64,000 bases of DNA from Polynucleobacter necessarius (GTDB taxonomy: Bacteria; Pseudomonadota; Gammaproteobacteria; Burkholderiales; Burkholderiaceae): contig LT606947.1 in NCBI GenBank assembly GCA_900095165.1, positions 558,001 to 622,000 on the forward strand, in the 5' to 3' direction. The position numbers were made by a program, and so were the translations under genes. Positions 1,267 through 37,633 of the stretch are shown one piece after another. Below the pieces are notes generated by a model. That model was not told the origin of the DNA. It searched no databases and was given only the letters and a program-made list of their open reading frames with translations. Numbering within the stretch: the stretch's first letter is position 1; each line of letters begins with the position of its first letter.

Positions 1267-1665
1267 GTGTTCAAGGGTTCGGTGTCCAATATATGCACGT
1301 ATACGCATATATTGTTAAATCCATTGAATACAAAAGCAAAAGTTAAAAAAGCCACCAAAGAACTTTCTCCAAAAGAGATGGAAAAGATATTTACTCGTGT
1401 TGCCGAATATTTCAATGTCCTTTCTGAACCATCACGCCTACGCATCATGTATGCAGTGTGTAGTGGTGAAAAGTCTGTTTCTGAGGTCGTTGAGTTATGT
1501 GGCTCGAGCCAGGCCAATGTTTCGCGCCATCTTTCGGCACTGCATAAGGCGGGAACCCTGCATAGACGTAAAGAAGGTACATCAGTTTTTTACTCAATTG
1601 CTGATAACGCTACTGTCGAGATGTGCCAAACGGTATGCGCCAAGATTGCTGAAAGTTTGCATTAA
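1267..1665 (+). CDS. ArsR/SmtB-family transcriptional regulator of the sox cluster
   Basis: This is a winged-helix repressor-type protein. The domain runs from about residue 38 (FTRVAEYFNVLSEPSRLRI) through the recognition helix (SSQANVSRHLSALHKAGTLH) to the wing (RRKEGTSVFYSI). Sox clusters often carry such a regulator, called SoxR, that senses reactive sulfur through a cysteine pair. Cysteines are present near the N-terminal helix (YAVCSG), before the recognition helix (ELCGSS) and near the end (MCQTVC), but pairing cannot be assigned. The longest ORF starts with GTG at 1267 but would cover the inverted repeat at 1288-1313, so a downstream TTG (1312 or 1324) or ATG 1378 is more likely. soxC follows 35 bp downstream. 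Confidence 0.8.
   Translation: MFKGSVSNICTYTHILLNPLNTKAKVKKATKELSPKEMEKIFTRVAEYFNVLSEPSRLRIMYAVCSGEKSVSEVVELCGSSQANVSRHLSALHKAGTLHRRKEGTSVFYSIADNATVEMCQTVCAKIAESLH
1288..1313. promoter_or_regulatory. Inverted-repeat operator candidate for the ArsR-type regulator
   Basis: Perfect 9-bp arms AATATATGC and GCATATATT flank an 8-bp centre, ACGTATAC. AT-rich symmetric sites of this size are typical of ArsR-family operators. It lies between divergent modB (start 1219) and the regulator, so binding could control the regulator with sox, and possibly modBC. It is seen as a palindrome; the function is inferred. Confidence 0.6.
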
Positions 1666-1700: not shown

Positions 1701-3056
1701 ATGACTAGTAAACAATTAGAGATTAGTGCGCAGGATATTGACGCTATCGAAAAGCCAACCAATCGAGCTCGCCTAGTAAAGGCACCTGAGCATTTTGTTT
1801 CTCAAGAGTTGATTGTTGACATCAACGCTAATGGCTTAGATGAGAAGCGCCGTGGTTTCTTGCGCAAAGGTTTTATGTCTGCCATTGGTGGCGCGGCGGC
1901 CAGTCTAGTGGCTCCCTATGCGATGGCAGTAAGCGAGGGTGATCCAGCCATACTAGAAAAGCAAGAATGGCAAACCACTCTCGGCAAGAACGTGGCAACA
2001 ATGCCCTATGGCGTACCGTCTATTTACGAGTCCAACTTAATTCGTCGTGAGTCTCCAGGCTTAACTCGAGTTTCAGCAGCTTCAGTTGCGTTCACCCCAT
2101 TGCATGGTTTATTTGGAACTATTACACCAAACGGATTGCATTTCGAGCGTCATCACCAGGGTTGGTACAACATTAGCCCAGAAACTCATCGCCTAATGGT
2201 TAATGGTTTGGTGAAAAACCCACGTGTTTTCACGATGAATGATTTGATGCGCCTACCTTCAGTTTCTCGCACGCACTTTATTGAGTGTGGTGCCAATACT
2301 GGATTGGAGTGGGGTAACGTTGCTGTTCCTACTGTTCAATACACCCACGGCATGCTTTCGTGCTGTGAGTTCACGGGCGTTCCTTTAAAAGTGTTGCTTG
2401 AAGAGTGTGGCGCTGACCTTAAAAAAGGAAAGTTCATGCTGGCAGAGGGTGGTGATGGTTCTGGCATGACTCGCACCATTAATCTCGAGAGCTGTCTAAA
2501 TGACACTATCGTTGCTTGGTCGATGAATGGTGAGATGTTGCGCCCTGAAAACGGATTCCCGTTGCGCTTGGTTGTACCAGGAGTTCAGGGTGTAAGTTGG
2601 GCTAAATGGTTGCGTCGCCTTGAGGCGGGAGACATGCCATGGAATGCAAAAGATGAGGCGGTTCACTATATTGAGCTCATGCCTGATGGAACACATCGTC
2701 AGTACGCTTCGATTCAAGAATGTAAATCTGTTATCACCACTCCATCAGGCGGTCAGCAGTTACTGGATAAAGGTTTCTATAACGTGAGTGGTATGGCTTG
2801 ATCAGGCCGCGGAAAAATTACGCGTGTAGACGTTTCATTTGATGGCGGTAATAACTGGCGTACTGCACGCCTAGAGACTCCAGTCCTTACGAAGTCTATT
2901 ACTCGCTTCAATATTTATTGGGTTTGGGACGGCTCTCCCGCAATTCTGCAATCACGCGCTATGGATGATACTGGCTATATTCAACCTTCGATTAAGACAC
3001 TACGCAATGTTCGCGGTACTCGATCGATTTATCACAATAATGCAATCCAATCATGA
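1701..3056 (+). pseudogene. soxC: SoxC, molybdenum subunit of sulfane dehydrogenase, nonsense-mutated
   Basis: SoxC is the molybdopterin subunit of periplasmic SoxCD, which oxidises the sulfane sulfur held on SoxYZ. A twin-arginine signal (KRRGFLRKGF) is followed by the sulfite-oxidase fold with the Mo-ligand cysteine in FIECGAN and the region GVQGVSWAKWLRRLE. A TGA at 2799-2801 interrupts the frame inside GMA-stop-SGRGKI, where the family has a highly conserved Trp. The frame stays open after it for 84 more codons (VDVSFDGGNNW, ending NAIQS) to TGA 3054-3056. One TGG to TGA change explains the defect. The truncated 366-residue product would lose the C-terminal dimerisation domain. Confidence 0.9.
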
Positions 3057-3093
3057 AAATTGGATTCAAATGGCGAGGTGAGCAATATTCAAG

Positions 3094-4150
3094 TTGGATA
3101 AATTAAGCGTCCGTTTGGGATTCGCAGCGCTCATCGCAATTACTTCGCAACAAGCGTTAGCACAATCTGGCTCCGCTAAATTTCCTGGTATTGGTCGAGT
3201 AGCCACTCCTGCTGAAGTTGCGGCCTGGGATATTGATGTCCGCCCCGACTTTAAGGGTTTGCCAAAGGGGTCTGGCTCAGTAGAGCAAGAGCAAGTAATT
3301 TGGGAGGCTAAGTGTGCCAGTTGCCACGGTACATTTGGTGAGTCCAATGAAATCTTTACTCCTATTGCAGGCGGCACGACTAAGGATGATGTGAAGACAG
3401 GTCGCGTTGCATCACTAAAGGATATGAAGCAGCCGCAGAGAACAACCTTGATGAAGGTTCCCACGGTTTCAACATTGTGGGATTACATCTATCGCGCAAT
3501 GCCCTGGAATGCACCAAGATCACTCACGCCTGATGACACTTATGCCGTTGTTGCGTTCATCTTGAGTCTTGGGGAGATTGTTCCCGATGATTTTGTTCTG
3601 AGCAATACAAATATTGCCGAATCGTAATGGCATGACAACTAAGCATGGCTTCTGGAGTGTGACTGGTAAGCCGGATGTAAATGGCAGCGCCTGCATGCAT
3701 AACTGCGTGACTTTTGTTCAAATTGCTTCAACATTGCCTGATTTCGCTAGAAATGCGCATGAAAATATTGCAGAGCAAAATCGCATGTATGGTCCCTATC
3801 GTGGTGCTGACACCACCAAACCTCCTATTAAGGCTTTGCCAGGTGCCTCAGGCGCTGGTTTAGCCCATGCAGTTGATACCCATTCTTCAGCAGCTAAAGG
3901 CCCTGCAGCACTATTTAAGAATGAAAACTGTTCTGCTTGCCACGCTCAAAATGCCAAGTTAGTTGGCCCATCTATAGCCGATATTGCTAAGAAATATGAG
4001 GGGCATGGCGGTGCTTTGGATAAATTAATGACTAAAGTAAAGGCTGGCGGTGCTGGGGTTTGGGGTGCAATACCCATGCCTCCACAAGCCCAGCTTTCGG
4101 ATGAGGATCGCAAAACTTTGGTCACTTGGGTGCTATCTGGCGATAAATGA
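3094..4150 (+). pseudogene. soxD: SoxD, diheme cytochrome c subunit of sulfane dehydrogenase, frameshifted
   Basis: SoxD passes electrons from SoxC. The ORF opens at TTG 3094 after a GAGGTG ribosome site, with an export signal ending QQALAQ. The first cytochrome c domain has CASCH at about residue 75. The frame ends at TAA 3625-3627 right after NTNIAES. The second half (PNRNGMTTKHGFWSVTGKPD, then CSACH and the MPPQAQLSDEDR tail) continues in the next frame to 4150. A loss of a few residues plus a frameshift at about 3615-3626 fits. TGCCGAA sits exactly at the junction (3615-3621), suggesting deletion between two copies of that short repeat. The second heme domain would not be made. Confidence 0.85.
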
Positions 4151-4228
4151 TTTAAATTTAGTAGTTCATTGACGGTTTTAAAGCAAAATAGCTTATGTTT
4201 GTAGCTAAAGATTAATAAAGGAGTTTCT

Positions 4229-4681
4229 ATGAATCATCAGCGTCGTAGTTTATTGAAGTACTCAGCGGTATTTGGTTTGATGGCCTCTGCAGGTCTCATT
4301 AGCACCGCTCAAGCTCAAGAGTGGAACAAAGTCGCTTTTGAAGGCAAAGGTATCGATGATGTATTCAAGATTTTGGGTGCTGGTAGCCCAGACAAATCGT
4401 CTGCTGTTACTTTCAATGCTCCGGATATTGCTGAAAATGGTGCTGTAGTTCCAGTTGGAATTACTACAACATTAAAAGCAGAGCAAATGGCTATTCTGGT
4501 TGAAAAAAATCCAAGCTCACTCGCCGCTCAATTCTTTATTCCTGCCGGTACAGATGCTTTCGTAACAACTCGTATCAAAATGGGTCAAACATCAAATGTG
4601 TATGGCCTAGTTAAGGCTGATGGTAAGTGGCTGATGACTGTTAAAGAAGTCAAAGTAACGCTTGGTGGTTGCGGCGGTTAA
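4229..4681 (+). CDS. soxY: SoxY, sulfur-carrier subunit of SoxYZ
   Basis: SoxY carries the growing sulfur substrate covalently on its C-terminal cysteine in the periplasm while SoxAX, SoxB and SoxCD act on it. The protein (150 aa) has a twin-arginine signal (MNHQRRSLLKYSAVF), cleavage near AQAQ, and the diagnostic swinging-arm end GGCGG. A GGAG ribosome site precedes the ATG. The reading frame is complete, although its enzyme partners SoxA, SoxB and SoxCD are broken. Survival may be chance, because the gene is short, or may reflect a remaining carrier role. Confidence 0.93.
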   Translation: MNHQRRSLLKYSAVFGLMASAGLISTAQAQEWNKVAFEGKGIDDVFKILGAGSPDKSSAVTFNAPDIAENGAVVPVGITTTLKAEQMAILVEKNPSSLAAQFFIPAGTDAFVTTRIKMGQTSNVYGLVKADGKWLMTVKEVKVTLGGCGG

Positions 4682-4736
4682 TTCCGAAGCGATTAATAGA
4701 CACAATTCACTTATATAGAATAAAAGAGGAACCAAA

Positions 4737-5045
4737 ATGGCTGATCCAATGCGCGTAAGAGCTGCTGAAAACGGCGGTACCGTAGACGTAAAAATTTTGA
4801 TGAAGCATGATATGGAATCCGGTCAGCGTAAAGACGCTTCTGGCAAAACTATTCCAGCATGGTTTATCAGCACTATCAATGTAAAGGCCAATGGTAAAGA
4901 TGTATTTAACGGTCAATTTGGTCCAGCAGTTTCTAAGAATCCATTTTTGAACTTCAAGTACAAGGGCGCTAAGGGCGACAAAATTGTTGTAACTTGGAAC
5001 GATAGTAAGGGCGACAAGCGCACTGATGAAGCAACAGCTTCTTAA
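4737..5045 (+). CDS. soxZ: SoxZ, partner of SoxY in the sulfur-carrier complex
   Basis: SoxZ (102 aa, no signal peptide) forms the heterodimer with SoxY and is co-exported with it. Family features are MADPMRVRA at the start, the conserved IPAWFIST segment and an all-beta pattern. It begins 55 bp after soxY with an AGAGGA ribosome site and is intact. Confidence 0.93.
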   Translation: MADPMRVRAAENGGTVDVKILMKHDMESGQRKDASGKTIPAWFISTINVKANGKDVFNGQFGPAVSKNPFLNFKYKGAKGDKIVVTWNDSKGDKRTDEATAS

Positions 5046-5099
5046 TTGCTTTTTGCTTAATAAATCATCACCGCCTCCGTGGTTCTGAAATGGTAGGAA

Positions 5100-5917
5100 A
5101 TGCAGCGTAAATTGACCTTAGGGTTAGCTACTGGTTTAGTGGCAACTTTATTAACAATGACATCTTCGGCGTCGGCACAAAATAGTGCTACAGACGATAT
5201 TGCTAAATATCGAGAGATGATTGCAGACGGTAACCCTTCAGAGCTTTACGAGGCGGCTGGTGAAGATTTATGGAAAAAACCAGCTGGCCCTAAAAATGCC
5301 ACGCTTGAAAAATGTAATTTAGGATTAGGTCCTGGCGTAGTTAAAGGTGCTGCAGCACAACTGCCGCGCTATTTTAAAGATACAAACAAAGTTCAGGATC
5401 TTGAATCTCGTTTGATGACCTGTATGCAAGTGCTACAAGGTCGTGACCCACAATTGATGATCGATGCACCATTCCAAAATGGCCCAAAAAAGGATATGGA
5501 AGCGATTGTTGCTTACGTTGTAACTCAGTCTAAGGGTGACAAGATCAAAGTAAGCGCAGCCCATCCGAAAGAGAAAGAAATGTATGACTTAGGTAAACGC
5601 GCCTTCTTTTTTCAGGGAGGGGTCCAATGGACTTCTCATGCGCATCTTGCCATTCCGAGAATGGAAAGCGTATTCGCTTACAAGATCTACCAAATATTAC
5701 AGAGCAAAAAGGAGCTGCGATGGGCTGGGGTTACTGGCCTGCATACCGAGTTTCCAGTGGACAGTTTTGGACAATGCAGCAACGTCTAAATGATTGCTTC
5801 CGCCAACAACGTTTCCCTTTCCCGATTTATGGGTCTGACGTCACTATTGCTCTATCTATGTATATGGCTAAGACTGCCAATGGCGGCACAGTTGAAACCC
5901 CTGGCTTGAAGCGTTAA
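5100..5917 (+). pseudogene. soxA: SoxA, L-cysteine S-thiosulfotransferase cytochrome, frameshifted
   Basis: SoxA with SoxX couples thiosulfate to SoxY. The first frame (5100-5789) gives an export signal ending SASAQ, the N-terminal cysteine pair (EKCNLGLG and LMTCMQ) and the fold up to GKRAFFFQGG. It then runs out of frame at a G-run near 5617-5623. The correct continuation, PMDFSCASCH with the heme-binding site, the MQQRLNDCFRQQR segment with the axial cysteine and the C-terminus at 5917, is in the next frame. The lesion is a one-base loss or two-base gain in GGGG, within the 'ggaggggtcc' stretch. Without it the product lacks heme and the active-site cysteine. Confidence 0.88.
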
Positions 5918-5936
5918 TAGATAAGAGACGACGAAA

Positions 5937-6575
5937 ATGAAAATGACACACTTAAAACAACTCTTAGCTATTTCTGGATTTATTTTTGCAGCTGATTTAG
6001 TGCATTCATCTGCGCTTGCTCAGCAAAAAAATGATCTTAAATACAACAAGATGATTCAAGATAGTTTCCGAGCTGAAGGTATCACCGGATTGAATCGCAT
6101 TGATCAAGATGCAACACAGAAGTTTTGTTCAGATCCGCAGTTTGCTAACAGCAAACAAGGTGAAGCGATGCGTGAAAAAATCCAGAAGATCAATGTGGAT
6201 TCGATTCAACAACCATCCGATGGAAAGTATATCGGCGATTGGAAGAATGGCGAAAAAATCGCTCAAAGCGGTCGCGGTGCCACTTGGTCTGATAAAGCTG
6301 ATACCGTTATTGGTGGAGGTTGCTATAACTGTCATCAAATTGATCTTAAAGAAATTTCCTATGGAAATATCGGTCCATCATTATCGGGCCATGGAAAATT
6401 GCGCGGCTATTCCAAGGAGGTTGTAACATATACCTGGAATCGCATTAATAACTCTAAGGCTTATAACGCTTGCAGTAATATGCCTCGTTTTGCTCACTTC
6501 AAATTACTGAATGAGCAGCAGATTCAGGACGTCATGGCTTTATTACTTGACCATGAATCACCTGTAAACAAATAA
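5937..6575 (+). CDS. soxX: SoxX, monoheme cytochrome c of SoxAX
   Basis: SoxX (212 aa) is the electron-accepting partner of SoxA. It has an export signal ending SSALAQ, a single heme site CYNCH at about residue 131 and a distal methionine ligand in SNMPRF. It starts 19 bp after soxA with GAGACGA upstream. The frame is complete although SoxA is broken, so the SoxAX enzyme cannot form as such. Confidence 0.9.
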   Translation: MKMTHLKQLLAISGFIFAADLVHSSALAQQKNDLKYNKMIQDSFRAEGITGLNRIDQDATQKFCSDPQFANSKQGEAMREKIQKINVDSIQQPSDGKYIGDWKNGEKIAQSGRGATWSDKADTVIGGGCYNCHQIDLKEISYGNIGPSLSGHGKLRGYSKEVVTYTWNRINNSKAYNACSNMPRFAHFKLLNEQQIQDVMALLLDHESPVNK

Positions 6576-6585
6576 CAGATCTAAG

Positions 6586-6605
6586 CAGGCCGAAAGGCCT
6601 GTTTT
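6586..6605 (+). terminator. Hairpin terminator or attenuator between soxX and soxB
   Basis: Stem CAGGCC / GGCCTG with a GAAA tetraloop, followed by TTTT. It lies directly after soxX and 14 bp before soxB. It could reduce, rather than stop, readthrough into soxB. Confidence 0.65.
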
Positions 6606-6619
6606 CTTAAGGAAATACT

Positions 6620-8350
6620 ATGTCTTTAAATCGCCGTGAATTTCTTCAAGCACTAGCAATTGCTTCTGCTGGTGGCATGAGCTTGCAATCTAATTTTGCT
6701 AGCGCGCAAACTACCGCTCAAAAATTCTATGATTTACCAAAGTTCGGTAACGTCCATTTCCTGCACTTTACAGATTGCCATGCGCAACTCCTGCCAATCT
6801 ATTTCCGCGAACCCAATGTCAACCTTGGTATTGGCGCTCAAGAGGGTAAGACACCGCATTTGGTAGGCGAATACTTCTTAAAGGCTAACGATATTACAGC
6901 GGGTACACGTGATGCCCATGCATTTACTTACTTAGATTACGTAACCGCGGCTCAGAATTACGGCAAGATGGGCGGCTTCGTCCATATGGAGACTTTGATT
7001 AAGCAAATTAAAGCTAGCCGTCCAGGCGCGTTACTTCTGGATGGTGGCGACACTTGGCAGGGATCTTGAACTGCACTCTGAACCAATGGACAGGATATGG
7101 TTGACGCAGCCTTACTGTTGGGCGTAGATGTCATGACTCCGCATTGGGAGATGACTTTAGGAGAGCAGCGTGTAATGGAAATCGTCAATGGCGATTTCAA
7201 AGGCAAGGTTTCTTTTGTTGCGCAAAATATTAAGACGGCAGATTTTGGCGACTCTGTATTCAATCCCTATGTGATGAAAGTTCAAAATGGGATTCAAGTA
7301 GCCATCATTGGTCAAGCATTTCCATATACAACGATTGCTAACCCACGCTATTTCACTCCTGATTAGACATTTGGTATTCAGGAAGAGAACTTGCAGAAGA
7401 CTATTAAAGAAGTGCGCGCAAAATGTGCGAAGGTTGTTGTATTGCTGTCGCATAACGGTATGGACGTTGATTTGAAGATGGCATCACGCGTTAGTGGTAT
7501 TGGTGCAATTATGGGTGGCCATACTCATGATGGAGTTCCAATTCCAGTCAAGATGAAGAATTCTGGCGGTGTTACCTTAGTTACAAACGCAGGCTCCAAT
7601 AGCAAGTTCTTGGGCGTGTTGGACTTTGACGTAAAGGGCGGTAAGCCTGTTGATTTCCGTTACAAACTTTTTCCAATCTTCTCAAATATGATTCCGGCCG
7701 ACCCTGCGATGAACAAGCTGATCACTAAAGTTCGCGCCCCATACGAAGCAAAGTTTAGTGAAAAGTTAGCCACTACAGATGGGCTTTTATATCGTCGTGG
7801 TAATTTCAACGGCAGTTTCGATCAGTTAATTTTGGATGGATTGATGGCTCAGAAGAATGCGGAGATTGCATTCTCTCCAGGTTTCCGTTGGGGCACCAGC
7901 TTATTGCCAGGTCAAGCTATTACCCGTGAGAATCTATTGAATCAAACTGCAATTACCTATCCATACACCACAGTTACCAATGTGACTGGTGAGACTCTCA
8001 AGACCATTCTTGAGGATGTAGCGGATAACTTATTTAATCCTGATCCTTATTACCAGCAGGGCGGTGATATGGTTCGTGTCGGTGGTATGCAATACACCAT
8101 CGACCCTGCAGCATCTGCAGGTAAACGCATTAGCGACATGCGTTTAAATGGGAGAGATATTGATCCAAGTAAAACTTATAAAGTCGCTGATTGGGCGCCG
8201 GTAAGTGAAGAGGCTAGAAATGCTGGTGGTGAGCCGATCTGGGATGTAATCGAACGTCATTTACGAGATGTGAAAGTGGTGAAGGCTGTGAAGCTAAATG
8301 AACCAATCATTAAAGGTGTAAAAAATAACCATGGAATGGTTTCACTTTAA
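6620..8350 (+). pseudogene. soxB: SoxB, dimanganese S-sulfosulfanyl-L-cysteine sulfohydrolase, three in-frame stops
   Basis: SoxB hydrolyses the terminal sulfone from SoxY to release sulfate. The full-length frame (576 codons before the end) has a Tat signal (NRREFLQAL), the metal-site motifs HFTDCHAQLLP, GGDTWQG, LLSHNGMD and GGHTHDG, and a normal 5'-nucleotidase-type C-terminal domain. Stops interrupt it at 7067-7069 (TGA, at a Gly of WQGSGTAL), 7079-7081 (TGA, at the Trp before TNGQDM) and 7364-7366 (TAG, at the Trp of PDWTFGIQE). There is no frameshift: all parts share one frame. Three independent hits mean the gene has been non-functional for some time. Confidence 0.93.
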
Positions 8351-8376
8351 TAATACTTATTAATCAGAGATATATT

Positions 8377-8802
8377 ATGAAAAAATTACTTCAGTGCCTC
8401 GTGACTTCTTTAGCCTTTTTTGCTTTGACTGTACATGCTGCTGGCTCCACTGAAGTGGTTTATCACATTGATGACGCGGAAACTCAAGGCATTAAAGGCC
8501 TGCGTAATATTTGCAATCATTTGGATGTATCCCCACAAACCAAGATCATTGTTGTTACTCACGCCAATGGGGTAGACATCATGATGGAAGGTGCAAAAGA
8601 TAAGAAAAATGGAATTGAATATGCGCCCCTAGTTGGCGCATTGAAGTCTCGTGGCGTTCGTTTTGAAGTCTGTGAAATTACTTTAAAGAATCTCAATCTC
8701 AAGAAGGATCAATTCATTCTCGATACTGAGTTCACCCCATCTGGAGTTGTTCGAGTGGCTGATCTTCAATACCAAAATTATTTCGCTTACATCAAGCCTT
8801 AA
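8377..8802 (+). CDS. Periplasmic DsrE/F-like family protein of the sox cluster
   Basis: This is a 141-aa protein with a signal peptide ending VHAAG and a DsrE/DsrF-like alpha/beta fold (STEVVYHIDD at the start, then KIIVVTHANGVDIMMEG and a conserved cysteine in RFEVCEITLKNLNL). Such proteins often accompany sulfur-oxidation genes and may handle sulfane sulfur, but the exact job of this exported type is not established. It sits 26 bp after soxB, is intact and presumably co-transcribed. Confidence 0.75.
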   Translation: MKKLLQCLVTSLAFFALTVHAAGSTEVVYHIDDAETQGIKGLRNICNHLDVSPQTKIIVVTHANGVDIMMEGAKDKKNGIEYAPLVGALKSRGVRFEVCEITLKNLNLKKDQFILDTEFTPSGVVRVADLQYQNYFAYIKP

Positions 8803-8811
8803 TTTTTAGTT

Positions 8812-9759
8812 GTGATGGCTATTCAGATGCGATCGCTTCTTCTGAGTGCATTCTCGATCTTTTTATCGGTAACCTTGGCTTATGCCTCAGATGATTTACT
8901 CCTTAAACCTATCCAGGTCGCTCCTCACACTTATTTTGTGCAAGGGTTCCCGGAGATGGGCAATAGCAAGAATCAGAACTTCATTTCCAATGCGGGATTT
9001 GTTATTACATCCAAGGGTGTAGTAGTGATTGATGCTTTAGGTTCGCCCGTTCTTGCAAAGAAACTGATTTCTGAAATTAAAAAGACTACGCCTCAGAAGG
9101 TTGCCGCTGTCATTGTGACTCACTACCATGCCGATCATATATATGGCCTGCAAGAGTTTAAAAATGTTGGGGCAAAAATTTATGCCCAAGGCGAGGATAG
9201 AAGTTACCTCTCATCTGAAACTGCTAAGCAACGGCTAATAGCCTCCAGGATTGATTTCGCTCCCTGGGTGAATTCCTCGACCAAGCTAATGGGGGCTGAT
9301 GTATGGATAGATCAAAGCTACACACTGACAGTCGGCGGAATTGAATTCAAGATCGGAAGAGTGGGACCAGCTCATGCTCCGGAAGACTTGATTATTTATG
9401 TTCCCTCTGAAAAAGTCCTTTTTGCTGGAGATTTAGTATTTCGAGGACGCATTCCTTTTGTCGGTAATGCCGATAGCAGAGGTTGGTTGCATGCCTTGGA
9501 TGAAATTGAGGCATTTAACCTCAGCATCGTGATTCCAGGTCATGGCGCCCATTCAACCAATCCAGCTGAAGATATCCTTTTTACTAGAGAGTATTTGAGG
9601 TATTTACGCGAATCGATGACCAAATCGGCTGTAAATATGGATCCTTTCGAGGAGGCCTATCAGCAGACTGATTGGTCTGAATACGAAGGAATGCCTTTAT
9701 TTAGGGCTGCAAACCGTATGAATGCCTATAACGTTTACCTCTCGATTCAGGCCGAATAA
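8812..9759 (+). CDS. SoxH-like metallo-beta-lactamase-fold hydrolase
   Basis: This exported zinc hydrolase has a signal ending LAYAS and a metal site HYHADH at about residue 104. A further ligand histidine lies in GPAHAPEDL, the aspartate in FAGDLVFRG and a histidine in IPGHGAHS. It resembles the SoxH / quinoprotein-relay metallohydrolase group found at the end of sox operons, whose substrate is unknown. The longest frame starts with GTG 8812, but ATG 8815 or 8827 (MRSLLLSAF) would give a better signal peptide. The frame is complete. Confidence 0.8.
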   Translation: MMAIQMRSLLLSAFSIFLSVTLAYASDDLLLKPIQVAPHTYFVQGFPEMGNSKNQNFISNAGFVITSKGVVVIDALGSPVLAKKLISEIKKTTPQKVAAVIVTHYHADHIYGLQEFKNVGAKIYAQGEDRSYLSSETAKQRLIASRIDFAPWVNSSTKLMGADVWIDQSYTLTVGGIEFKIGRVGPAHAPEDLIIYVPSEKVLFAGDLVFRGRIPFVGNADSRGWLHALDEIEAFNLSIVIPGHGAHSTNPAEDILFTREYLRYLRESMTKSAVNMDPFEEAYQQTDWSEYEGMPLFRAANRMNAYNVYLSIQAE

Positions 9760-9819: not shown

Positions 9820-10134
9820 ATGAAATTACCACTGATAAAGCTTGGCTTTGCCATTTTTGCAGCCCTAGGGCTGCATTCATCTGCCTTCGCATCGCCAGAT
9901 CTGGTAAATGGCAAAAAAATTGATCAGCAGAAATGCTACGCCTGCCATGCTAAGAAATCTGACTTTGGCAATGGCGATATGATTTACACGCGCAGCGATA
10001 GCAAGGTTAAAAATCTCCAGAATTTAAAGTCGATGGTTGCCATGTGCAACACAGAGCTCCGCCTCGATCTTTTCCCTGAGGATGAAGCTGATGTCACAGC
10101 CTTTCTCAATAAACAGTTTTATAAATTTAAATAA
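9820..10134 (+). CDS. Small c-type cytochrome, SoxE-like
   Basis: This is a 104-aa periplasmic cytochrome with a signal ending SSAFAS and heme site CYACH at about residue 47. The helix ending DEADVTAFLNKQFYKF is typical of small sox-linked cytochromes that take electrons from the Sox enzymes. Assignment as SoxE rests on position and size. The frame is intact. Confidence 0.75.
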   Translation: MKLPLIKLGFAIFAALGLHSSAFASPDLVNGKKIDQQKCYACHAKKSDFGNGDMIYTRSDSKVKNLQNLKSMVAMCNTELRLDLFPEDEADVTAFLNKQFYKFK

Positions 10135-10154
10135 TTCAGTAAAGAAATTTGATT

Positions 10155-11276
10155 ATGGATGCGGTAGATATTTCCTCACTCAGCAAATCCGTTTTGCTTG
10201 TTACCTTTGCAATTACTTTTTTGCTTGGTGCGGTCATGCAGAAAACCGGTTTTTGCAGTATGAGTGCTGTTTCAGATATTTTTATTATGTCTAGTTGGGA
10301 GCGTTTGAAGCAATGGTTCCTGGCCATTGGTGTTGCCATTGTTGGTTTTGTTCTGATGTCATATTTAGGCTTGATTGATCCATTAAAGAGTATGTATACC
10401 GGCAGCAAGCTCTTATGGTTATCCGCTATTGTCGGCAGTACGCTTTTTGGTTTCGGGATGGTGCTAGCTTCTGGTTGCGGAAGCAAAACATTAGTGCGTA
10501 TTGGTGGCGGAAATCTTAAGTCTATCGTTGTGTTTATGGTTCTTGGGCTCTCTGCCTATATGACCATGAAGGGTTTTCTTGGAGTCGTTCGTATCAACAC
10601 ACTAGATTCTGTTTTCATAGCCTTGAATACACCGCAGGATTTGCCAAGCATTTTGAGTCCAATCACTGGCATTGCTCGAACTAATTTGCACTTAGCTCTA
10701 GGCCTTATAGTTGGCTTTGCTTTTATTGCTTATGCATTAGCCAGTAGGGCTTTTTGGACAGCAGAAAATTTGTTTGTTGGCATATTTGTTGGTCTTGCCA
10801 TTTGCGCCGTATGGTGGGTATCTGGTAACTTAGGCTATGTAGCTGAGGATCCAAATACACTAGAGGAGGTTTTCTTGGTTACCAACTCTGGTCGCATGGA
10901 GAGTCTTTCTTTTGTAGCGCCTTATGCCTACTTGCTAGATTGGTTAATGATGTACAGCGATACATCCAAGGTAATTACTGTTGGTATTGCCGCTGTTATT
11001 GGGATGATTGCTGGCTCAGCATGTGCTTCTATATTCACCAAGTCTTTCCGCTGGGAGAGCTTTCGCAACACTGAAGACGCTGCCAATCACTTGGTTGGTG
11101 CTATGCTCATGGGCTTTGGCGGTGTAACGGCACTTGGTTGCACTGTGGGTCAAGGCTTGAGTGGAATCTCTACATTAGCTATCGGTTCAATGCTGGCGTT
11201 GCCAGGATTTATCTTCGGCGCATATTTGGCTCTGCGTTATTTAGAGTCTCGTAGTGCGCCCAACCCCTGCAGTTAA
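10155..11276 (+). CDS. YeeE/YedE-family transporter, thiosulfate/sulfur-compound uptake (TsuA-like)
   Basis: This integral membrane protein has roughly nine to ten hydrophobic segments. It carries the family's conserved cysteine motifs GFCSMSAVSD, GCGSKTLVRIGGGN and GCTVGQGLSG, which in TsuA-type transporters relay thiosulfate through the membrane. ATG 10155 (MDAVDISS) is preferred over TTG 10149. It is 20 bp after the SoxE-like gene and likely part of the same operon. The frame is intact. Substrate by family and context only. Confidence 0.8.
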   Translation: MDAVDISSLSKSVLLVTFAITFLLGAVMQKTGFCSMSAVSDIFIMSSWERLKQWFLAIGVAIVGFVLMSYLGLIDPLKSMYTGSKLLWLSAIVGSTLFGFGMVLASGCGSKTLVRIGGGNLKSIVVFMVLGLSAYMTMKGFLGVVRINTLDSVFIALNTPQDLPSILSPITGIARTNLHLALGLIVGFAFIAYALASRAFWTAENLFVGIFVGLAICAVWWVSGNLGYVAEDPNTLEEVFLVTNSGRMESLSFVAPYAYLLDWLMMYSDTSKVITVGIAAVIGMIAGSACASIFTKSFRWESFRNTEDAANHLVGAMLMGFGGVTALGCTVGQGLSGISTLAIGSMLALPGFIFGAYLALRYLESRSAPNPCS

Positions 11277-11297: not shown

Positions 11298-11735
11298 ATG
11301 CAGATCGATTGGTTGACATTTACTCCTGGCCCCGCATTTTTCGGTGGAATGCTATTGGGCATTGCTGCAGCCTTATATGTCATTCTGCATGATCGAATCC
11401 TTGGTATCAGTGGAATCGTTTCTGGTCTCCTTACGCCTAAAGAGGGTGATGTTAATTGGCGCTTAAGTCTTATATTAGGCTTGCTAAGCGCACCATTTTG
11501 GGCAAGCTTGTTGCTTGATCTGCACACAACAACACTAATTGATGCAGATTGGCTTGCCATCATCATTGCCGGCCTTTTTGTGGGTTTTGGTGCTCACTAT
11601 GGCTCAGGCTGTACGAGTGGTCACGATGTTTGTGGTTTATCCCGTTTATCACCAAGATCTTTAGTGGCCACGATCTCCTTCATGTTTGCTGGATTCCTTA
11701 CAGTGTTTGTCATTCGTCATGTGTTGGGCCTATAA
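11298..11735 (+). CDS. YeeE/YedE-family half transporter, first gene
   Basis: This 145-aa membrane protein has four predicted membrane spans and the conserved motif GFGAHYGSGCTSGHDVCGLS. It is the small, two-gene form of the YeeE family, normally encoded in tandem with a second half as seen here. It probably moves a sulfur compound together with the next gene product. It starts 21 bp after the larger YeeE gene. Confidence 0.8.
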   Translation: MQIDWLTFTPGPAFFGGMLLGIAAALYVILHDRILGISGIVSGLLTPKEGDVNWRLSLILGLLSAPFWASLLLDLHTTTLIDADWLAIIIAGLFVGFGAHYGSGCTSGHDVCGLSRLSPRSLVATISFMFAGFLTVFVIRHVLGL

Positions 11736-11738
11736 ATC

Positions 11739-12170
11739 ATGAGAAGACATTTCAATTTCTATAGTCAGTATTTGATTGGTGTTTTATTCGGTATTGGCCT
11801 GATTATTTCCGGCATGAGTAACCCCCAAAAGATTCTTAATTTTCTTGATCTTGCTGGCAATTGGGATCCATCTTTAATGTTTGTGATGGCTGGAGCTATT
11901 CTGGTTGGCTTTGGCGGCTTTTATGTGGTCTCTAAACGTTCAGAAGCTTTTTTTGGTGACGCCATGCATATCCCAACCAGAAGAGATATTTCTAAGCCTC
12001 TTGTGATTGGCAGTCTAATATTTGGCGCAGGATGGGGGATTGCTGGCTTTTGTCCTGGTCCTGCGATTGTTGCTCTTGGCGCTGGCCATCTAAAGGCCTT
12101 GGTCTTCATACTGTCTATGCTTATCGGCATGGCGTTCTGCAACCGTTTCTTTACGGGCCATAAAAAGTAA
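11739..12170 (+). CDS. YeeE/YedE-family half transporter, second gene
   Basis: This 143-aa membrane protein has the paired motifs FGIGLIISGMSNPQK and GAGWGIAGFCPGPAIVALG characteristic of the second half of the two-gene YeeE-type transporters. It begins three bases after the stop of the first half, so the two are translated together. The frame is intact. Confidence 0.8.
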   Translation: MRRHFNFYSQYLIGVLFGIGLIISGMSNPQKILNFLDLAGNWDPSLMFVMAGAILVGFGGFYVVSKRSEAFFGDAMHIPTRRDISKPLVIGSLIFGAGWGIAGFCPGPAIVALGAGHLKALVFILSMLIGMAFCNRFFTGHKK

Positions 12171-12228: not shown

Positions 12229-12573
12229 ATGAGTCTTCCTATTGCTTGCCATACCGATCAATTCGGCACGCTCGGTCAAATTGACCCAAGCCACTTAGCT
12301 GAGATCGTTAAACAGGGTTACAAAAGTGTGATTAATAATCGCCCCGATTTTGAAGGTGGGCCCGATCAACCTACCAATGCGCAATTTCAGGCACAAGCTG
12401 AAGCGCTAGGCTTGAGCTATGCTTATTTGCCAGTCATACCTGGCGCATTTACGCCTGATCAAGTTGTTGAAATGGCTCGCTTGTTGAAAACAATGCCTAC
12501 CCCCATATTGGCCTTTTGCCGTTCTGGTTCCCGCTCTACCAATTTGTATCAAATGACTCTACAAGTTCGTTAA
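12229..12573 (+). CDS. TIGR01244 / DUF442 family phosphatase-like sulfur-metabolism protein
   Basis: This 114-aa cytoplasmic protein has the tyrosine-phosphatase-like P-loop FCRSGSRSTN near its end and the family start pattern FGTLGQIDPSHLAEI...YKSVINNRPDFE. Relatives (Blh N-terminal domain) sit next to YeeE transporters and persulfide dioxygenases and are thought to take part in sulfide or persulfide handling. The active-site Cys and Arg are present. It follows the YedE pair after 58 bp, with a TGAGG site upstream. Confidence 0.78.
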   Translation: MSLPIACHTDQFGTLGQIDPSHLAEIVKQGYKSVINNRPDFEGGPDQPTNAQFQAQAEALGLSYAYLPVIPGAFTPDQVVEMARLLKTMPTPILAFCRSGSRSTNLYQMTLQVR

Positions 12574-12590: not shown

Positions 12591-13010
12591 ATGCGCATTG
12601 AGATCCAGGAGGAAAAAAAGTTTGTTCATCAAATGAACATGCTAATTCGTTGGGGTGACATGGATGCATTTGGTCATGTCAATAATACGGTGTACTTTCG
12701 CTATATGGAGCAGGCTAGAGTGGAGTGAATTACTTCCCTTGGTTATAGTATTGCTCCTGGTGATGAATCTATGTTGATGATTAATGGGTTTTGTAATTTT
12801 CATCAACAGCTGGCCTATCCTGGTGAGCTGACACTAAAAACGTATATTGGCAAAATTGGGTGCTCAAGCTTAGATGTCTATACGACTATGGCATTGACCA
12901 CTGAACCCGATTCGATGGCGGCGGTTGGCGGGGCTACTATGGTCTGAGTAGATCTGAAGACTGGTAAGTCGACGCCTTGGCCAGATCATGTGATCAATAA
13001 GCTGTGCTAG
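12591..13010 (+). pseudogene. 4-hydroxybenzoyl-CoA-type acyl-CoA thioesterase, two in-frame stops
   Basis: This is a hotdog-fold thioesterase (139 residues if read through). The catalytic region is intact (RWGDMDAFGHVNNTVYFRYM, then EQARVE). TGA codons interrupt at 12726-12728 (ARVE-stop-ITSLG) and 12945-12947 (ATMV-stop-VDLKTGK). Family members have Trp at both places, so each is a single TGG to TGA change. The end overlaps the GTG start of selU (13004). With two stops the gene is surely non-functional. Confidence 0.85.
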
Positions 13011-36159: not shown

Positions 36160-37554
36160 TTAGGCGACCTTGGAAAGCCTTTCTACAGCTTCATTCTTAC
36201 CCAAAACAACCAACACAGAATCAATGGCTGGAGTCTGTGTTGTTGCAAATAAGGCATAACGGACGGGCATAGCTAATGCTGGCATTTTGATTTGATGTTT
36301 AGCCAAAACTTCTTTAAAAGCTAGGTCATAGGCTGCTTTTGTATGCTCCGTAGATTTAATCGCTTCTATCAAATCTTCGAGGGCTGGAATAATTTCTGCT
36401 GGGATATTTGCGGCAATTTGTTCGGGATTGTGCGTTGGTGCCGGCAAGTAAAAAAGCTTTGCCCCCTCTGCTATTTCAATCAGGGTGTTTGCGCGATCCT
36501 TTAGAAGCGCAACCACTTGAATAAAATCTGGCCCCTTTTCTGTATCAATACCTAACTCATGCGCAAAAGGCTTGCTTGCTTCTGCAAGAGCGACTGGATC
36601 TGCATTCTGAATGTATTGATGATTCAGCCAAAGCAATTTTTCAGAATTATGTTGTGCGGGCGATCTACCGAGGCTATCCAAGTCAAACCAATTAACAAAC
36701 TGCTCTTTGGTAAATATCTCTGCATCACCGTGAGACCAGCCTAGTCTTGCAAGGTAATTCAAAATAGCTTCAGGCAAGTACCCTGCTTTTTGGTAATCGC
36801 GAACACTCATGGCGCCATTACGCTTACTCATTTTTTCACCAGAGTCATTGAGGACTGTTGGCAAATGGGCGTATACAGGCGGTGCGCCACCGAGCGCCTT
36901 CATGATGTTAATTTGGCGAGGCGTGTTATTCACATGATCGTCACCACGAATCACATGAGTAATATTCATATCCAGGTCATCCACTACAACGCAAAAGTTA
37001 TAAGTTGGCGTGCCATCAGGGCGAGCAATCACCAAATCATCGAGCTCATCATTGCTAATTTCAATCTTTCCCTTAACGGCATCTTCCCAGATGACTGAAC
37101 CGCCAATAGGGTTCTTGAAGCGAATCACGGGCAAAACACCTCCAGGAATTGCTGGCAGCACTTTACCAAGTTCGGGACGCCATTGACCGTTGTATCGTGG
37201 CTTTTCTTTACTAGCCATCTGTTGATCGCGTAGCTTGTTTAGTTCATCCTCGCTCATATAACAAGGATAAGCAAGGCCAGCATCCAGCATCTGCTTAATA
37301 ACTTCACGATAGCGATCAATGCGTTGCATTTGATAGATTGGGCCTTCATCTAAATCCAGGCCAAGCCATGCCATGCCTTCAATAATGACGTCGACCGCCT
37401 CTTGAGTAGAGCGTTCTACATCGGTATCCTCGATGCGCAAAATGAAGTCGCCTTTGTTATGACGGGCAAAAGCCCATGGATACAAAGCGCTGCGAAGGTT
37501 GCCCAAGTGAATGAAGCCCGTTGGACTGGGGGCGAAACGTGTACGTATATGCAT
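36160..37554 (-). CDS. gltX: Glutamyl-tRNA synthetase
   Basis: GltX charges tRNA-Glu with glutamate. This class I synthetase has [19 protein letters not shown] (HIGH-type motif HLGN) and [11 protein letters not shown] (KMSKS-type). Length is 464 aa from ATG 37554. The tRNA-Glu gene lies 200 bp downstream in the same direction. The frame is intact. Confidence 0.96.
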
Positions 37555-37633
37555 AAATAACATTATCTCAGGTCAGCCTAAGATTTCAGGATTTAGCACC
37601 CTAAGCCTCAAAAAAAAGTGGATACTTTCATTT

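Follow-up and report, generated by a model that had tools for sequence, protein, structure and literature searches.

The sox operon of Polynucleobacter necessarius, which lies near the start of a 64,000-nucleotide stretch of its genome (GenBank assembly GCA_900095165.1, contig LT606947.1, bases 558001-622000; hereafter the window, to whose positions the coordinates below refer), appears to have been inactivated recently, and its soxY and soxZ genes, together with a downstream gene for a full-length YeeE protein (yeeE1), probably form a separable module that is kept when the rest of the operon is lost, and which we propose functions as a line for sulfur import or relay. We place the probability of this reading at roughly 0.58. 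The lesions are best read as the loss of thiosulfate oxidation in the source organism. SoxYZ is usually viewed as the servant of SoxAX, SoxB and SoxCD. Several separate decays that spare this carrier and a YeeE channel can be read like a set of deletion mutants made by nature, which suggests that SoxYZ-YeeE does something besides thiosulfate oxidation. The available parts of earlier studies describe sox genes in free-living Polynucleobacter (PMC3308952), genome reduction, pseudogenes and loss of sulfur assimilation in Polynucleobacter symbionts (PMC11253213), and divergent SoxY genes adjoining YeeE in lucinid symbionts (PMC11237559). The new part is comparative, namely the repeated sparing of soxYZ and yeeE1 across separate sox decays; no report of such selective retention was found in the partial texts searched, which excluded the main symbiont-genome papers that may hold it.

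Lesions in the sox genes of the window

The source genome is a single contig of 1,893,413 bases with a completeness rating of 99.99%, and the named relatives of the window place it within the genus Polynucleobacter. The operon is collinear with those of strains 80A-SIGWE, 78F-HAINBA, 31A-FELB, MG-27-Goln-C1 and es-MAR-4 (85.5-86.8% DNA identity over 14 kb), and the sox genes are intact open reading frames (ORFs) in 78F-HAINBA and 80A-SIGWE (loci L039 and L052). All seven core sox genes were found on the forward strand, as are the accessory genes that flank them, at the positions given by the original prediction, which was made from the sequence alone and held that four of them are broken and three open. 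Alignment to relatives bears this out, with seven disabling lesions in soxC, soxD, soxA and soxB. The soxC gene (1701..3101) contains TGA codons at 2799 and 3054, the second of which, near the gene end, had been overlooked, while soxD (3085..4150) carries a 14-bp deletion near 3614, defined relative to 78F-HAINBA, soxA (5100..5917) a 2-bp insertion near 5616, and soxB (6620..8350) a TGA at 7067, a TGA at 7079 and a TAG at 7364. The earlier description of most lesions as single-base changes holds for the five substitutions, but not for soxD and soxA. Intact frames are retained by soxY (4229..4681; Pfam SoxY: 1.1e-30), soxZ (4737..5045; Pfam SoxZ: 3.8e-34) and soxX (5937..6575).

At the five stop positions, a stop codon is absent from all 56 aligned relatives. 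These relatives comprise 78F-HAINBA and 55 loci which passed a filter for the full operon, out of 60 loci of at least 13 kb among 79 named loci (L040-L118). A lesion filter, which is blind to paired frameshifts and to lesions at the very gene ends, flagged 71 of their 784 gene rows as irregular, none of which belong to soxD, soxY, soxZ or soxB. The four irregular soxC rows (L079, L089, L091 and L108) are all affected at the gene start, and the others concern the starts of soxA or yeeE1, one frame excursion in soxX (L089) and four accessory genes described below (soxR, mbl, dsrE and cytc). One search returned a soxC match with two TAA codons in G001; its locus by coordinates, L113, is unflagged in soxC by the filter. 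Carrying lesions absent from relatives and being otherwise conserved, soxC, soxD, soxA and soxB are classed as pseudogenes. Intact SoxA, SoxB, SoxC and SoxD are thus missing from the set required for thiosulfate oxidation, of which SoxX, SoxY and SoxZ remain as open frames. Given the truncations and frame breaks, thiosulfate attachment (SoxAX), hydrolysis (SoxB) and oxidation (SoxCD) should cease, as had been predicted.

Sequencing or assembly error is a most improbable origin of these lesions. The soxA insertion does lie among short runs, where base-call or homopolymer errors could arise, but the five substitutions, the 14-bp deletion and the near-complete single contig argue against it, as do the similar but different lesions in three other genomes and the raised number of changes at invariant residues across the broken genes. 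Still less credible is a recoding of TGA as tryptophan that would leave the genes functional. Although TGA accounts for four of the five stops, the fifth is TAG, one of the TGA codons does not fall at a tryptophan position, and the reading frame is broken in soxD and soxA. Recoding was rejected, as the TAG stop and the frame lesions exclude a general rescue.

The pieces of the broken genes share 85-97% protein identity with 78F-HAINBA, and the ratio of non-synonymous to synonymous substitution (omega) on the window's own branch, estimated by a three-taxon distance method, is only 0.040 (0.03-0.05) for soxC, soxD, soxA and soxB combined (soxCDAB), both of which support the recent loss originally proposed. 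The accompanying expectation of relaxed omega was not borne out: the value of 0.040 falls within the 0.014-0.061 range of free-living control tips (L052: 0.022; L104: 0.021; L117: 0.014; L080: 0.061; L076: 0.038). Omega therefore does not prove relaxation and was dropped as evidence for it, and most of the window's branch was probably lived under selection. Relaxation is shown more clearly by residues constant in the free-living rows, of which 20/869 are changed in soxCDAB of the window, while nine free-living tips have 0, 1, 2, 1, 0, 1, 3, 10 and 1 changes of approximately 870. One control, the free-living P. parvulilacunae (L080), has unusually divergent soxA and soxX genes (non-synonymous distances of 0.19 and 0.12 on its branch), for which recombination is a possible cause.

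Separate decays of the operon and the genes they spare

A soxB search over 186 genus genomes, with follow-up searches, identified three further single-contig genomes with broken sox operons (G157, G106 and G103) among the matches listed; further decays are possible, since partial matches in fragmentary assemblies were examined in part. No soxB match was obtained in nine of the 186 genomes, seven of which are multi-contig assemblies. The counted lesions sit at different positions in the window genome, G157, G106 and G103. In a tree of operon codons, built from the operon itself, the window joins the 78F clade (support 69; wider group 100) and G103 with L053, L063, L068, L072 and L076 (100), while G157 and the pair G106 and G158 (88) group with free-living L080, L081, L087, L099 and L117 (100). 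The differing lesion positions and the interleaving of decayed genomes with free-living species support four separate decays. The 1.7-Mb genome G158 (L175), in which soxC is partly deleted, mbl is broken and the other six core sox genes are intact, perhaps shows this decay at an early point.

None of the four decayed genomes has an unbroken soxC, soxA or soxB, and only G106 has an open soxD. The original prediction had treated soxY, soxZ and soxX alike as open, which is correct for the window, but soxX is broken in each of the other three genomes, in G106 through a frameshift confined to the leader region. Judging from the other decays, retention seems to apply to soxY and soxZ but not to soxX. 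No stop, frameshift or indel occurs in soxY, soxZ or yeeE1 (10149..11276; PF04143: 6.9e-60) in any of the four, nor in G158. When lesions were shuffled in proportion to gene length, at least 1,890 nt remained untouched with P-values of 1.7e-5 when all lesions are counted, 1.3e-3 when the extra lesions per gene are halved and 1.4e-4 when only the count of broken genes is preserved, or of 4.3e-5, 0.004 and 4.1e-4, respectively, without the window. For soxY and soxZ alone, both untouched, P is 0.003-0.02 with the window and 0.005-0.03 without it. The lesions were counted by hand, leaving out soxR, those N-terminal differences of mbl that resemble ones found in free-living species, and indels at the extreme 3' ends (last codons) of soxD, yeeE2 and yeeE3; G158 stood outside the shuffles, its soxA, soxX and soxB being intact, and the G103 cytochrome gene was scored as hit in the final shuffle and as unhit in an earlier one.

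In G103, the most decayed of the four, SoxYZ (1/155 invariant residues changed; P 0.0006) and YeeE1 (2/149; P 0.003) are significantly more conserved than the SoxCDAB remnants (28/366). The same holds for the four genomes pooled (SoxYZ: 10/620, P 0.005; YeeE1: 8/596, P 0.0016; remnants: 108/2862).

A compact, minimal form of the cluster is found in G017 (1.55 Mb) and G151 (2.09 Mb), which have soxY, soxZ, three YeeE-type genes and a TIGR01244 gene between neighbours matching those of the window's operon, with the other sox genes absent from the stretches read. Searches of these two genomes gave no soxB match; soxC was unmatched in G017 and gave one weak match in G151 (2.2e-5), and SoxA was unmatched in G017 and gave only a 32%-identical match in G151. 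The flanks of the G017 cluster are broken (a modB-like gene with a stop and a frame-split thioesterase gene), while its six module genes are free of stops and frame breaks. Coverage by long ORFs (150 amino acids or more), a rough measure, as shown by values of 79% for G164 and 83% for G151, is 60% in two 20-kb samples of G017, 71% in G106, 76% in G103, 85% in G157 and 86% in G158; it is 81% in the source genome (ten samples) and 85-89% in 78F, MG-27, G105 and G160.

The alternative is plain decay, whereby the whole operon is dying and soxY, soxZ and yeeE1 owe their open frames only to their shortness or to chance escape so far. Several results favor this alternative or weigh against a protected module. 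In the window, SoxYZ has 3/155 invariant residues changed, indistinguishable from the 20/869 of the broken genes (P 1) and above the 0 or 1 of the nine free-living tips, and omega for soxYZ (0.037; 0.01-0.07) nearly equals that of soxCDAB, such that the window alone cannot separate protected open genes from those not yet hit. The soxX gene, open here and broken in three other genomes, indicates that some open genes have simply escaped so far. Together soxY and soxZ account for only 762 of 10,125 nt, and the strength of the shuffles comes largely from yeeE1. Taken alone, G157 (SoxYZ: P 0.79; YeeE1: P 0.16) and G106 (SoxYZ: P 0.18; YeeE1: P 0.071) are non-significant, and G106 also leaves soxD, dsrE and yeeE2 open. 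Decay of yeeE2 (G157, G103), yeeE3 (G157, G106, G103) and the TIGR01244 gene (G103) leaves some lineages without the complete relay. A promoter-like site next to soxY was looked for and none was found; the Shine-Dalgarno stretch at soxY is conserved, G103 included. Furthermore, with SoxAX, SoxB and SoxCD lost, SoxYZ would need another sulfur donor. Plain decay nonetheless appears unlikely, as four separate decays have all left the same three genes unharmed, the 1,128-nt yeeE1 is spared where the 426-438-nt dsrE, yeeE2 and yeeE3 are hit in some genomes, SoxYZ and YeeE1 are significantly constrained in G103, and G017 and G151 keep the module without other sox genes nearby. We therefore favor the selective retention of soxY, soxZ and yeeE1.

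Accessory genes, genome erosion and sulfate assimilation

Upstream of soxC, an open gene in a SoxR-like position encodes an ArsR-family regulator (soxR; 1321..1665; Pfam HTH_5: 7.9e-13) and is clean by the lesion filter. Downstream of soxB, and all open in the window, are genes for a DsrE/DsrF-like protein (dsrE; 8377..8802; Pfam DsrE: 1e-10), a SoxH-related metallo-beta-lactamase-fold protein (mbl; 8812..9759), which is broken in G157, G106, G103 and G158, and a small CxxCH cytochrome-like protein (cytc; 9820..10134). Beyond yeeE1 follow a half-length YeeE/YedE gene of PmpA/PmpB-like size (yeeE2; 11298..11735; PF04143: 1.7e-8), a second half-length gene of this type with a DUF6691 domain (yeeE3; 11739..12170; PF20398: 4.1e-49) and a TIGR01244 sulfur transferase gene (DUF442/BLH phosphatase-like; 12229..12573; TIGR01244: 92.9 bits, cut-off 85.85; PF04273: 2.3e-27). 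Two of these were rejected as members of the kept core. The cytochrome frame is open in G157, G106 and G103, yet 3/32 and 4/32 of its invariant residues are changed in G106 and G103, where it looks unconstrained; its start codon is changed in G103, although the start is uncertain and the free-living L117 also has no ATG there. The transferase gene is broken in G103. In G160, a truncated yeeE1 stands behind the sox operon (G160:C1:1296032-1296292) and a full-length copy elsewhere (809527-810642), a pattern that would fit relocation or replacement of the transporter gene. The source genome also has a second sox-like cluster (L179; G000:C1:281301-285612), all of whose genes are open, encoding a molybdopterin-binding large subunit (xanthine/aldehyde dehydrogenase-like), a 144-amino-acid protein with no Pfam match, and SoxY-like, SoxZ-like and SoxA/TsdA-like proteins.

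Genes conserved between 78F-HAINBA and MG-27-Goln-C1 were looked up in three stretches of the source genome totalling 224 kb (12% of the genome), and 23 of the 149 assessable genes look broken (3/42, 13/62 and 7/45 per stretch). A further 15 of 164 were set aside as absent, 14 of which lie at outer stretch ends, where gene-by-gene correspondence between the genomes has probably been lost. The same test flagged 5/62 genes in the window region of the free-living es-MAR-4, two of them at the stretch end; two of the five recur in the window's set of 13 and look like poor gene calls. These counts support wider genome erosion, and the source genome appears to be eroding beyond the sox operon. Core sox genes are broken more often than the others (4/7 versus 19/142; Fisher P 0.011), in a region that was picked for being broken. 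Damaged genes in the window include a permease gene, modB-like by our reading (571-1259; frame break), a thioesterase-like gene (12591-13010; two TGA codons) and a 489-amino-acid gene (36160-37631; frameshift and TGA near the start).

The damage extends to sulfate assimilation. In the source genome, CysD has a TAG, CysH is frame-split and the sulfite reductase has a TGA and a TAA; the damaged sulfur assimilation genes, cysteine synthase included, are placed at G000:C1:919706-921120, 7421-8686 and 1022371-1023251. CysD has a TGA in G106, CysH and CysN are in pieces in G157, and neither CysD nor CysH was matched in the G103 genome. It could be argued that what keeps the module in place is specifically the need for reduced sulfur in cysteine synthesis once sulfate assimilation is lost. 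This would agree with the damage in all four decayed genomes and with the available part of an account in which symbiotic P. necessarius has lost assimilation of nitrate, sulfur or sulfate (PMC11253213). However, the cysteine synthase is reduced to remnants in G103 and frame-split near its end in the source genome, many other genus genomes are also without CysD/CysH (117/186 have a match above cut-off, some of these being other proteins), and G151 has the stand-alone module yet keeps CysD/CysH. As such, cysteine supply fits G103 poorly and is improbable as the module's purpose.

The proposed SoxYZ-YeeE module and its known counterparts

The window SoxY has a twin-arginine leader and a C-terminal GGCGG arm, as in G157, G106, G103 and G158, while the C-terminus reads GGCG in G151 and SGCGS in G017. 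With SoxY and SoxZ scoring above the TIGR04488 (160.7 bits; cut-off 125) and TIGR04490 (120.5 bits; cut-off 76) thresholds and the arm present, the pair has the features of a canonical SoxYZ carrier. YeeE1, a PF04143 protein, matches TsuA (PDB 6leo; 8.4e-15), and its three channel cysteines, kept in 8/8 sequences, line up with those of TsuA. On the basis of domain and cysteines it is classed as a putative YeeE/YedE (SoxT/TsuA-like) sulfur transporter.

The operon would accordingly represent a Sox thiosulfate-oxidation locus, recently inactivated in an eroding Polynucleobacter genome, and we infer the biochemistry of what is left as follows. SoxYZ would take sulfane sulfur or sulfide on the cysteine of its GGCGG arm from a source other than SoxAX and present it to the three-cysteine YeeE channel, which would hand it on into the cytoplasm, giving a sulfur import or relay line that operates without thiosulfate oxidation. 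The direction of flow is suggested by analogy with Hyphomicrobium denitrificans, for which the accessible text reports that the YeeE-type SoxT1A is required for sulfur to enter the cytoplasm and proposes a SoxYZ-SoxT1A line (PMC11582611). More tentatively, SoxYZ and YeeE may form a self-standing import or relay module needed after the loss of both thiosulfate oxidation and sulfate assimilation, with repeated Polynucleobacter erosion, possibly within ciliate hosts, trimming the operon to it and G017 as the end point. Such a function would matter for the handling of reduced sulfur by bacteria with reduced genomes, symbionts perhaps among them, and could be tested in cultured free-living Polynucleobacter.

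The free-living Polynucleobacter Sox operons (e.g. 78F-HAINBA) share the gene order and position of the window's operon and differ in that their sox genes are open, where soxC, soxD, soxA and soxB are broken in the window. The Polynucleobacter symbionts of Euplotes offer a parallel, having arisen independently several times, with reduced genomes that are rich in pseudogenes and have lost sulfur assimilation, although the portion of their review at hand makes no mention of Sox or of a kept SoxYZ-YeeE (PMC11253213). The TsuA (YeeE) thiosulfate importer of Spirochaeta thermophila resembles YeeE1 in its PF04143 domain, aligned over residues 21-361, and in its three cysteines, whereas YeeE1 scores only 106.5 bits against the NCBIfam TsuA equivalog cut-off of 400 and is linked to soxYZ. 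In the SoxYZ-SoxT1A-Rhd442 line of H. denitrificans, as described in the part of that work available (PMC11582611), SoxXA and SoxB load the carrier and sHdr oxidises the sulfur, whereas the loading enzymes are lost in the window; the two systems nevertheless have in common the SoxYZ carrier, the three-cysteine YeeE-type channel and a nearby gene for a TIGR01244/DUF442-type sulfur transferase, the type of Rhd442 being taken from its name.

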